Assembly (NCBI RefSeq): GCF_001953175.1
Contig: NZ_CP018258.1
Coordinates: 462,210-526,209, forward strand
Length of the DNA stretch: 64,000 nucleotides
Source of the DNA: Dehalogenimonas formicexedens
Lineage (GTDB): Bacteria; Chloroflexota; Dehalococcoidia; Dehalococcoidales; Dehalococcoidaceae
Reading direction: 5' to 3'
In this document: positions 35,461 through 41,236 of the stretch, piece by piece
Layout of the letters: each line of letters starts with the position of its first letter
How positions within the stretch are numbered: position 1 is the stretch's first letter
Translations under genes and position numbers: made by a program
Notes under the pieces: model-generated
Seen by the model: only the letters and a program-made list of their open reading frames with translations
Told to the model about the DNA's origin: nothing
The model's database searches: none

Positions 35461-36126
35461 TCAAGCGTTTCGTGTCGTTTTTGAAGGAATATATTTATGA
35501 CAGGAAGTTCTAATTTCCAGTACGCGCTGAGCAATCCGGGGCGCGCCGACAAGGTCTGAGATCACGGCAAAACATTTGCATCCAAGGTCTGCCAACGATC
35601 CTATATTCTCCCTGGTGATGCCGCCGATGGCAACAACAGGAAGTCCGATGCGTTTAAGGGCATATTCGACAAGCTCAATACCGCCAGGATCGGCGGCATT
35701 GAGCTTGGTGGATGTCGGAAAGACCGGTCCGACGCCCAGATAATCGACCTCGGGGATTATCAACGCTTTATCGATTTCTTGGGGTGTAGTGACTGACAGA
35801 CCGATAATCATGTCTTGGCCGATGACCCGGCGGGCGGCTTCGGGGGGGAGATCGTCCTGACCGAGGTGAAGCCCATCGGCATCGCAGGCTACGGCCAGTC
35901 CGGCATCGTCGTTCACGATGAAGCAAGCCCTGTATTCCCGGCACAGCTGTCTTAGGGCAAGGCACTCCTGGTATTTGCGCCGCATCGGGAAATCCTTCTC
36001 CCGGTACTGGATGATCTTGATCCCGGCCTCTAGTAACTGCCGGGCGGTCTCAACGTTGCCCCGGCCTTGCGAGCAGGCATCCGAGAGAACAGCATAAATA
36101 TCGGTTTGGGGCAGGGTTGGTCTCAT
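35461..36126 (-). CDS. thiE: Thiamine-phosphate synthase
   Basis: Joins HMP-pyrophosphate and thiazole phosphate to form thiamine monophosphate. IQYREKDFPMRRKYQECLAL (pyrophosphate binding), FIVNDDAGLAVACDADGLHL, GQDDLP, GLSVTTPQEI, YLGVGPVFPTSTKLNA and PVVAIGGIT are the conserved blocks in order. At 221 aa it is complete. It follows the AIR-synthase-like gene after 15 bases, so both sit in one TPP-riboswitch operon. Confidence 0.92.
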   Translation of the reverse strand: MRPTLPQTDIYAVLSDACSQGRGNVETARQLLEAGIKIIQYREKDFPMRRKYQECLALRQLCREYRACFIVNDDAGLAVACDADGLHLGQDDLPPEAARRVIGQDMIIGLSVTTPQEIDKALIIPEVDYLGVGPVFPTSTKLNAADPGGIELVEYALKRIGLPVVAIGGITRENIGSLADLGCKCFAVISDLVGAPRIAQRVLEIRTSCHKYIPSKTTRNA

Positions 36127-36141
36127 CGAATGTTTTCCCGC

Positions 36142-37203
36142 CTATTCTCCTTGCATGGCTTTTGAAAAAGCCTTCCAGAAGGGATCGACGACGGGATGTA
36201 ACAGGGCGGACTCCCGTCCCTGATCGACGAGAACCATGCCTTTTTCCGGGGCGGTCAATTCCCCGACGATCGACGACGGGATATTTTTGGCGCTTAAAGC
36301 CTGAATAACATCGCAAGCCCTGTGAGGGCGGCAGGTGACGATCAGAGTGCCTTCGGATATGGCGGCGTACGGGTCGTCGATACCGAACAGGCGGCAAATT
36401 TCAGGCACGCCGTCGGCGACGACGATGTCATCTTTGATGATCCGCACGCCCAGCCCGGCTGCCTGGGCGACCTCGAACAGTCCGCCCCAGATGCCGCACT
36501 CGGTGGCATCGTGCATAGAACTGACACCGTTATCTCTAACACCAATCGAAACGGCAGCCAGCGCATCATCGACCACCGACATCTGATAGAAAAGACCTCC
36601 GGCGCGGCTCGCAAAGTCATCACCGAATTTTTTTGTGATCAGACCGGGAAACACCGCGGCGAAGATGCCGCAGGCTTCGATGGCGGGACCCTTGGTGATG
36701 ATGATCTTGTCGCCTTCCCTGGCGAAACGCGGCGACACATACTCATCCAACCCGCCAATCCCGATCATGGTCGCGCCGCCAACCATTGGATAACTGCAGC
36801 CCTCATACCGGGCGGTATGCCCGGTGATCACGTTTATACCCATGTTCTCGCACTCGCGATGCATGACCGACCACATAGCGGACAACTGCTCTTTGGTCAT
36901 GTCCATGGGCAGATTAAGGTCGATCGAGAGAAATTTCGGTTTGAGACCGGAAGTGACCGAATCAGAGGCGATGATGTGGATGGCGAACCAGGCGGCCCGT
37001 TCAAAACCGTATTGGGGAACGATGAACACCGGATCCGTGGTGAAAGACACTGCCTGGCCGCCTATTTCGGCGATGCCGACATCGACGCCATGCTGCGGAC
37101 CGACCAGGACCTTATCACTTTTGGCGCCAAGGCGGGGGAAGATGATCTCCCTGAAGATTTCCGGGGAAATCTTACCGATTTCAGGCATTTCCATATCGGG
37201 CAT
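36142..37203 (-). CDS. AIR-synthase-related protein (PurM/ThiL/HypE superfamily)
   Basis: From ATG 37203 (GAGGAG upstream) the protein is 353 aa. VGPQHGVDVGIAEIGGQAVS, SLDLNLPMDMT-like and VITGHTARYEGCSYPMVGGA segments give the PurM-type ATP-binding fold, and TECGIWGGLFEVAQAAGLGV the second domain. The superfamily includes PurM, SelD, HypE and the thiamine-monophosphate kinase ThiL. Because it is first in a TPP-riboswitch operon with thiE, a thiamine-phosphate kinase role is a strong hypothesis, but the sequence is not a canonical ThiL. The frame extends into the upstream terminator (37242), which is not used. Confidence 0.75.
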   Translation of the reverse strand: MPDMEMPEIGKISPEIFREIIFPRLGAKSDKVLVGPQHGVDVGIAEIGGQAVSFTTDPVFIVPQYGFERAAWFAIHIIASDSVTSGLKPKFLSIDLNLPMDMTKEQLSAMWSVMHRECENMGINVITGHTARYEGCSYPMVGGATMIGIGGLDEYVSPRFAREGDKIIITKGPAIEACGIFAAVFPGLITKKFGDDFASRAGGLFYQMSVVDDALAAVSIGVRDNGVSSMHDATECGIWGGLFEVAQAAGLGVRIIKDDIVVADGVPEICRLFGIDDPYAAISEGTLIVTCRPHRACDVIQALSAKNIPSSIVGELTAPEKGMVLVDQGRESALLHPVVDPFWKAFSKAMQGE

Positions 37204-37228
37204 TTTTGAAAACTCCTCGCTTAAAAAA

Positions 37229-37256
37229 ATTCCGGAAGGCAATGCGCTTCCGGAAT
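37229..37256 (-). terminator. Riboswitch-linked terminator hairpin
   Basis: ATTCCGGAAG and CTTCCGGAAT form a perfect 10-base stem with an 8-base loop. On the minus strand it is followed by ATTTTTTTAA. It lies between the TPP aptamer and the AIR-synthase-like gene, so it is the likely expression platform. Confidence 0.85.
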
Positions 37257-37261
37257 CTGTC

Positions 37262-37350
37262 TACTTCCCTACGCTCGCATTACCGAGACCAGGTTCCAAG
37301 GGTCGTCCCGATCAAGATCAGGGACTCTCAGCCTTTCGGCTCCCCCAGTA
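37262..37350 (-). ncRNA. TPP riboswitch (THI element)
   Basis: Read on the minus strand, ACTGGGGGAGCC, GGCTGAGAG, GACCCTTGGAACCTG and AATGCGAGCGTAGGGAAG are the conserved TPP aptamer segments in the right order. The variable stem (TCCCTGATCTTGATCGGGA) sits between the second and third. It binds thiamine pyrophosphate and should switch off the AIR-synthase-like and thiE genes through the terminator just downstream. Confidence 0.93.
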
Positions 37351-37400
37351 AAAATTATATTAAGTTGTTGGGGCAATAATACCACAAACAGGAGAAAAAT

Positions 37401-38863: not shown

Positions 38864-39100
38864 ATGGAAGAAAACACTAACAGGGGTCTAATGGCAGGGT
38901 TACTGGCGGGCGCGGCGATCGGGATCAGCCTGGGGTTATTATACGCGCCCAGGAGCGGGGTTGAAACAAGAGAAATGCTCCGCAAGCGGGCGGATGACAT
39001 GAAAGTCCGGGCCGAATCCCTGAGCCATTCTATCAGGGACAAGGTGGCAGGGGTGGCACATCCCATAGGGGGAGACGGCCACGGCGAAGCACAAACCTGA
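38864..39100 (+). CDS. YtxH-domain protein 1, 78 aa
   Basis: GLLAGAAIGISLGLLYAPRSG after a short polar N-terminus is the YtxH hallmark: a glycine-rich membrane segment ending L-x-A-P-x-S-G. A charged helix (VETREMLRKRADDMKVRAES) follows. Family members are general stress-associated membrane proteins. First of three tandem paralogues with separate RBSs, ended by the terminator at 39694. Confidence 0.85.
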   Translation: MEENTNRGLMAGLLAGAAIGISLGLLYAPRSGVETREMLRKRADDMKVRAESLSHSIRDKVAGVAHPIGGDGHGEAQT

Positions 39101-39132
39101 AAAAGCCGCCAATAATAGAGGGAGATTGAGAT

Positions 39133-39387
39133 ATGGAGACAAAAACGGTTAAGGGAATCGCTGCCGGCGTGCTTGCCGGGGCAGCGATCGGTGCCGGCGC
39201 GGCATTATTGCTGGCGCCCCAGTCCGGCCGCGAAACGAGGAAGGATGTCCGGAAGCGGGTAGAAGATCTGAAAGCCCAGGCTGATAGCTTTGTTGCCGAC
39301 ATCAAAGAGCGCGATGAAGCTTTTTGTAAGGCGGTCAAAGAAGGCGCAGACGACTACCGCCGGGATATGATGGCGAAATACGGGTAA
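39133..39387 (+). CDS. YtxH-domain protein 2, 84 aa
   Basis: Same plan as its neighbours: GIAAGVLAGAAIGAGAALLL-APQSG, then a charged helical tail (RKDVRKRVEDLKAQADSFVA). It begins 32 bases after the first copy with a GGGAG RBS. Sequence differs enough from the others to suggest an old duplication. Confidence 0.85.
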   Translation: METKTVKGIAAGVLAGAAIGAGAALLLAPQSGRETRKDVRKRVEDLKAQADSFVADIKERDEAFCKAVKEGADDYRRDMMAKYG

Positions 39388-39431
39388 CCTGCAGAGTCCT
39401 GATCCGTTATAAGGAATAAAAGGAGGAGTAA

Positions 39432-39665
39432 ATGGAAAAAGGTTTGGCCAAGGGTTTAGCGATCGGGATCATCGCCGGGGCGGCGATCGGAGCCGGGGTG
39501 GGGATGCTCTATGCTCCACAATCAGGAAAAAAGACCCGCAAAGAAATAATTGACCGGGCTGAGGACTTTTCCGACGCCGTAAAAGAGCGGGCTGAAAAAT
39601 TCAGCGACCTGGTGGGCAACAAGACTGATAAATATCGCAAGAAAATCATGGAATCCATCTCCTAG
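39432..39665 (+). CDS. YtxH-domain protein 3, 77 aa
   Basis: GLAIGIIAGAAIGAGVGMLY-APQSG and a charged tail rich in E, K and R (KTRKEIIDRAEDFSDAVKER). RBS AGGAGG. Last of the three copies and followed directly by a strong terminator, so the cluster is one transcript or three short nested ones. Confidence 0.85.
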   Translation: MEKGLAKGLAIGIIAGAAIGAGVGMLYAPQSGKKTRKEIIDRAEDFSDAVKERAEKFSDLVGNKTDKYRKKIMESIS

Positions 39666-40714: not shown

Positions 40715-41236
40715 TTATAACAATCCTTCGGCCTGGCGCGGCTGTCCTTCCCTGATGAAACTAATACGGATCCGGGCGCCCTTTTCCAGGCGGGACAAAG
40801 CCAGACCGAGGTCCGAGGCGTTGTTCACTGTCGTAGAGTCGATCCGGGTAATGACATCGCCCGGTTTGAGACCCGCCTGCGCTGCCGGCATCCCGGGCTT
40901 TACTGCGCCGACATATGCCCCTGAAAGAACCCCGGGTCCGTGAGCGGCGCTGTATTTGGCAGCATCGGCCACCGAGGCGCCGAATGATGGCGCCTGTGCG
41001 CTCTTTGCCTGAGACAGATAGTATTCGAGCTGCTGGGGATCGAAACCAACCACGAGATTGCCGTCGATGTCAGTTACCGGGACGGCCATTCTGCCGGTCC
41101 GCCGCGCCAATTCCTGGGCGGCTGCGGCATCACGGGAGACGTCAACCTCTTCAAATGGGACACCGCGCTGTGAAAGGAACCCTTTCACGGTGTGACAGTG
41201 CGGTCAGGTCTGGGTGGTGTAAACGGTCACTTTCAT
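40715..41236 (-). CDS. Glutaredoxin-PDZ protein, probable selenoprotein (in-frame TGA at codon 11)
   Basis: ATG 41236 has GAGGTG nine bases before it. The N-terminus reads MKVTVYTTQT, then TGA (41204-41206), then PHCHTVKGFLSQRGVPFEEV. The TGA sits at the first cysteine of the glutaredoxin C-P-x-C motif, so it is likely read as selenocysteine (U-P-H-C). Downstream of the TGA, GTGAAAGG-GTT-CCTTTCAC is a hairpin that fits a SECIS element. Residues about 12-75 continue the thioredoxin fold (RRTGRMAVPVTDIDGNLVVG), and 100-173 form a PDZ domain (AAQAGLKPGDVITRIDSTTV). Without readthrough the only start is an internal GTG that removes the redox site. Confidence 0.75.
41174..41192 (-). promoter_or_regulatory. 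Candidate bacterial SECIS hairpin
   Basis: On the minus strand GTGAAAGG-GTT-CCTTTCAC forms an 8-base perfect stem with a 3-base loop that starts with G. Outer ACACC/GGTGT pairing is possible. The loop begins 23 bases after the TGA at 41204-41206, within the 16-37 range known for bacterial SECIS elements. Confidence 0.55.

Follow-up and report, generated by a model that had tools for sequence, protein, structure and literature searches.

A predicted selenocysteine-containing glutaredoxin-PDZ fusion protein in Dehalogenimonas formicexedens and other Chloroflexota

Introduction

Glutaredoxins with selenocysteine (Sec) are already known. Grx1 of Clostridium oremlandii (cGrx1) is a native selenoprotein with a U(or C)PxC motif (PMC7642778), an 84-residue single-domain protein (PDB 7c10/7c12) without a PDZ domain that has been proposed as the reductant of the selenoprotein MsrA. 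The YruB family (TIGR02196) is likewise described by a single-domain model, of 74 residues, that is silent on both Sec and PDZ. Four UXX-star families (NF041212, NF041114, NF041211 and NF047338) have a glutaredoxin-like fold and place Sec close to the N-terminus, and none carries a PDZ domain. The pairing of a redox domain with PDZ in a selenoprotein has been described for the Trx7/PDZ (seleno)protein NF041199 (PMC13188914), a model of 390 positions whose thioredoxin-type domain has a CxxU motif.

In Dehalogenimonas, the selCDAB genes and Sec in FdnG and SelD have been published, and the selenoproteins named in the genome papers are selenophosphate synthase and formate dehydrogenase (PMC4918011, PMC13390414). 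Here we describe a further candidate, absent from those papers: a glutaredoxin fused to PDZ (Grx-PDZ), with a UxxC motif, encoded in a 64,000-nucleotide stretch of the D. formicexedens genome (the window), and we compare it with homologues across the phylum.

Results

The gene and its domains

The initial annotation of this locus had placed an in-frame TGA at the first Cys position of a C-P-H-C redox motif, behind a start codon with a good ribosome-binding site and in an otherwise intact frame. The features of the gene, all on the minus strand, bear this out:

41236-40715, minus strand: predicted Grx-PDZ selenoprotein gene, from ATG (41236-41234) to TAA (40717-40715); 173 residues, with the TGA counted as one residue
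41250-41244, minus strand: RBS-like GAGGTGA, 7 nt 5' of the ATG
41206-41204, minus strand: codon 11, a TGA that putatively encodes Sec as the first redox residue of U-P-H-C; TGA or TGY in 72/76 Chloroflexota homologues
41015-41233, minus strand: glutaredoxin domain, YruB type, residues 2-74 (TIGR02196, PF00462, structural model, PDB 7c10)
40730-40972, minus strand: PDZ domain, DegP/DegQ type, residues 89-169 (PF13180, 5e-14; sequence and fold searches)

The translation opens with MKVTVYTTQT-U-PHC, codon 11 is the only interruption of the frame, and GAGG also precedes the gene in most members of the genus. As had been anticipated, a standard gene caller drops the first part: in the table-11 list of open reading frames the first start is the GTG at 41188, and the redox centre is lost.

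When the Sec codon was taken as Cys, the N-terminal domain scored 93.3 bits against TIGR02196, over the cut-off of 88.55; in the genome frame scan, where the TGA was not read as Cys, the score was 87.6. Its nearest solved glutaredoxin is dithiol cGrx1 (PDB 7c10; 53% identity, rmsd 1.2 A), which it also resembles in motif. The C-terminal domain scored 52.7 against PF13180 (Pfam gathering threshold 27), and Foldseek searches also recovered a PDZ fold; the PDZ domains of DegP and DegQ are the closest by both sequence and fold, although those proteins have a protease domain that Grx-PDZ lacks. An AlphaFold2 model built from 33 window and locus sequences (pLDDT 87.9) shows two folds in succession, glutaredoxin and then PDZ, with a pTM of 0.55 that leaves the mutual placing of the two domains uncertain. 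Cys14 is invariant across the 33 aligned sequences. The protein is probably cytoplasmic, since it has no obvious signal peptide.

By score, the protein falls outside the described selenoprotein families. NF041199 gave 40.7 bits, from the PDZ part only, against a cut-off of 300, and all four UXX-star models scored below their cut-offs (NF041212, 55.2 against 66). No NCBIfam model covers both the glutaredoxin and the PDZ domain, and the accessible part of Table 1 of a 2026 selenoproteome survey (PMC13188914) lists no glutaredoxin-PDZ fusion with a UxxC motif. Our literature search returned nothing on YruB with selenocysteine, nor on a glutaredoxin and PDZ selenoprotein of Chloroflexi. Outside the phylum, one contig scan with a few peptide patterns found single-domain or PDZ-only relatives only. 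Relative to that table and to NCBIfam, the fusion of a YruB-type glutaredoxin with a DegP-type PDZ domain appears to be new.

Elsewhere in the window, the only Rfam match at gathering thresholds was a TPP riboswitch (RF00059, 67.8 bits; 37249-37356, minus strand), which precedes two ORFs, one AIR-synthase-like (36142-37242) and one ThiE-like (35461-36126); no SECIS was found by this search. Three consecutive small YtxH-like ORFs on the plus strand (38864-39665) share the start GLxxGAAIGxxLGxLYAPxSG and are apparently tandem duplicates; elsewhere in the genus, too, their relatives lie near the Grx-PDZ gene.

Selenocysteine machinery in the genome

The genome assembly is a single contig of 2,092,789 bases. 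All four sel genes whose presence had been suggested as a check are in it: tRNA-Sec (selC), SelD, SelA and SelB cluster within about 5 kb, at approximately 2,056,145-2,061,160, with matches of 423 bits for SelA and 358 bits for SelB. The tRNA-Sec has the anticodon UCA, and the SelD gene itself has an in-frame TGA at its active site (YSGUAAK) followed by a small hairpin.

A SECIS-type hairpin downstream of the TGA

The initial annotation had also reported a perfect 8-base hairpin, with a 3-base loop starting in G, at the distance from the TGA used by bacterial SECIS elements (bSECIS), and the hairpin was found as follows:

41188-41170, minus strand: putative bacterial SECIS-type hairpin GTGAAAGG-GTT-CCTTTCAC, perfect 8-bp stem, loop GUU, 23 nt from TGA to loop

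Taken alone, it has an energy of -8.5 kcal/mol. As given in PMC13188914, bSECIS elements have a loop of 3-9 nt, a stem of 4-16 bp, G in the first two loop nucleotides, a distance of 16-37 nt from the UGA and a minimum free energy of -7.5 kcal/mol or below, and the hairpin falls inside all of these ranges.

Of the TGA triplets in the window, 2313 in all, 0.5% are followed at the same distance by a G-containing loop on a stem of at least 8 bp; when stems of 6 bp or more are counted, the share is 2.1%. The predicted fold of the segment is unremarkable (z -1.6), per-gene free-energy z-scores are weak, and the synonymous-shuffle p for the hairpin, per gene, is approximately 0.08. By itself the hairpin is evidence of modest weight. 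This bears on the reading of the TGA as a true stop, with translation only from the GTG at 41188 yielding PDZ plus a truncated glutaredoxin and the hairpin present by chance: the table-11 caller gives exactly this product, and a hairpin of this kind is not very unusual. The product would, however, have a glutaredoxin fold without its first strand and without either redox residue, and the comparative evidence below runs against it.

Conservation within the genus

Codon 11 is TGA in 8/8 genus genomes examined, at protein identities of 70-89%, and the frame and the codons upstream of the TGA are intact across the genus. Codons 1-10 and the TGA are kept at the protein level in the eight species, with synonymous changes among the codons, which argues against a true stop. 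The hairpin codons GTG AAA GGG TTC CTT TCA are identical in all eight save one G-to-A change in one member (L012), whereas silent sites vary in nearly every codon flanking them. The sister genus (g2) has neither the Grx-PDZ gene nor SelA.

A TGA lies one base away from a Cys codon, and a decayed gene or a sequencing error turning TGC or TGT into TGA would produce the same interruption. The TGA recurs, however, in every genus member and in 37 further genomes, in a frame that is otherwise undamaged. The comparative data already refute this origin, and we give it a negligible chance.

Selenocysteine and cysteine forms across the phylum

Scans of 393 genomes of the class and 400 of the phylum gave 76 Grx-PDZ homologues readable at codon 11. 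The codon is TGA in 45 (37 outside the genus), TGC or TGT in 27 and GAT in four, so that the suggested alignment of homologues turned up only Cys or TGA, bar four divergent copies. The fusion to PDZ, thought uncommon in the initial annotation, is instead widespread in Chloroflexota. The GAT (Asp) forms (L098, L099, L100 and L103) make up a separate long-branched clade in whose genomes SelB was not found; they are probably redox-dead derivatives.

The hairpin accompanies the TGA. A stem of at least 6 bp, with its loop 21-24 nt after codon 11 and G in the first two positions, was found in 44/45 TGA genes and 0/27 Cys genes (Fisher 6e-19, which overstates the independence of related sequences), the loop window having been picked after the Sec forms had been seen. 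The Cys genes serve well as a control, as the amino acids encoded at the hairpin are similar in both sets. The stem is shifted or weaker in nine members. Bare-hairpin energies of -7.5 kcal/mol or below occurred in 24/45 Sec forms and 1/27 Cys forms; the published energy cut-off thus separates the two sets, yet is too strict for many members.

RNAalifold returned no consensus structure for either the 45 Sec or the 27 Cys segments, and covariation was then counted on the named hairpin. In the Sec set, 86% of cells were paired against 80.4% after shuffling, and changes on both sides of the stem numbered 26 against 10; 0/500 shuffles reached these values. Relatedness alone can produce such an excess, though the counts also fall when the partner is slid. 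The Cys set stood at the shuffle level.

Placing Sec and Cys on the tree takes 12-13 changes, at least five of them on well-supported branches, and in these five switches the hairpin tracks the codon (sign test p 0.06, from five pairs only). Three TGA forms (L051, L053 and L063) are nested in a Cys clade and have a hairpin whose register is shifted by one nucleotide, with loop GGTT or GATT; they are candidates for a regain of Sec from Cys with a new SECIS.

SelA or SelB is present in 44/45 TGA genomes; the SelB wing domain occurs in 238/393 genomes of the class (61%). In the remaining TGA genome (L073; G419, an 88% complete assembly), neither SelA nor SelB was found, though its gene has an intact hairpin. 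Neither was found in five genomes with the Cys form (G335, G067, G111, G078 and G083).

Discussion

Taken together, TGA in 8/8 genus members and 45/76 homologues of the phylum, and a hairpin in 44/45 TGA genes against 0/27 Cys genes, are far beyond chance. We consider it about 95% probable, from the comparison of sequences, that the gene at 41236-40715 encodes a real selenoprotein with Sec at UGA codon 11. Comparison lends good support to each of three predictions, namely the decoding as Sec, the SECIS-type hairpin and the two-domain composition, and every check proposed with the initial annotation that was run favoured Sec. SelB and Sec-tRNA would bind the hairpin at 41188-41170, and the UGA would be decoded as selenocysteine, giving an N-terminal YruB-type glutaredoxin with U-P-H-C and a C-terminal DegP/DegQ-type PDZ domain. 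A true stop, against which stand the TGA or Cys at codon 11 in 72/76 homologues and the association of hairpin with TGA, is very unlikely.

Bacterial read-through of UGA is known in some species, and the codon could in principle be recoded without SelB, by near-cognate insertion of Trp or Cys or by a suppressor tRNA. This would leave the SECIS-type hairpin and the complete set of sel genes without a part, the only common alternative to TGA is Cys, and SelA or SelB accompanies the TGA form far more regularly than the class-wide frequency of SelB; we regard such recoding as highly improbable.

With Sec decoding as the preferred reading, the function of the protein may be approached through its neighbours. 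Genes for chaperones or proteases adjoin 13/68 loci outside the genus, in Sec and Cys forms both, where fewer than one adjacency would be expected by a rough guess (ten such genes in 2500) and the genomes, being related, are not independent. They encode LonB (L030, L061), ClpB (L045, L047, L054), DnaK (L050, L056, L060), DnaJ (upstream in L043, L048 and L062, downstream in L092) and FtsH (downstream in L086), and most are on the same strand and within 125 bp. This chaperone neighbourhood is absent in Dehalogenimonas, where the downstream neighbour is an acetyltransferase-like ORF, and the functional proposal therefore rests on distant homologues. At L086, a second glutaredoxin ORF lies directly upstream of the Sec gene. 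A gene for a small FmdB-type zinc-ribbon protein is repeatedly found downstream of the Cys form (L054, L055, L056, L058 and L060).

The neighbours and the DegP/DegQ-like PDZ domain together suggest a role in protein quality control, the reduction of disulfides in misfolded clients, which we propose tentatively and at rather less than even odds. The PDZ domain would hold clients by exposed hydrophobic C-termini, Sec11 would attack their disulfides (or sulfenyl or selenyl bonds) and Cys14 would resolve, making Grx-PDZ a targeted selenol/thiol reductase beside the chaperone/protease system. Thioredoxin reductase or some other thiol would, more probably than glutathione, serve as the reductant, since the glutathione synthetase profile PF02955, which stands for one route to glutathione beside GshF and uptake, had no match in 25 genomes.

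A Sec protein with a role in peroxide or sulfur handling instead, for example together with rubrerythrin or rhodanese, is also given rather less than even odds. Genes for one or the other adjoin L037, L041, L075 and L096, but the chaperone and protease neighbours are commoner and of five kinds, and the PDZ domain resembles that of DegP/DegQ.

Beyond the single gene, these results may describe a phylum-wide selenoprotein family outside the selenoproteome table of PMC13188914, in which PDZ tethers a selenol glutaredoxin to the chaperone/protease system and at least one clade went back from Cys to Sec through a fresh, shifted-register SECIS (L051, L053, L063); as a whole, we hold this to be a little short of evenly balanced.

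The fusion adds a two-domain architecture to the selenoproteins, and ordinary gene callers would cut it short ahead of the active site. It occurs in both Sec and Cys forms, with a hairpin beside the TGA only, which offers a clean natural experiment on the gain and loss of selenocysteine. The hosts include organohalide-respiring bacteria used in groundwater clean-up, and should the link to chaperones prove true, Grx-PDZ would give them a redox arm of protein quality control that depends on selenium.
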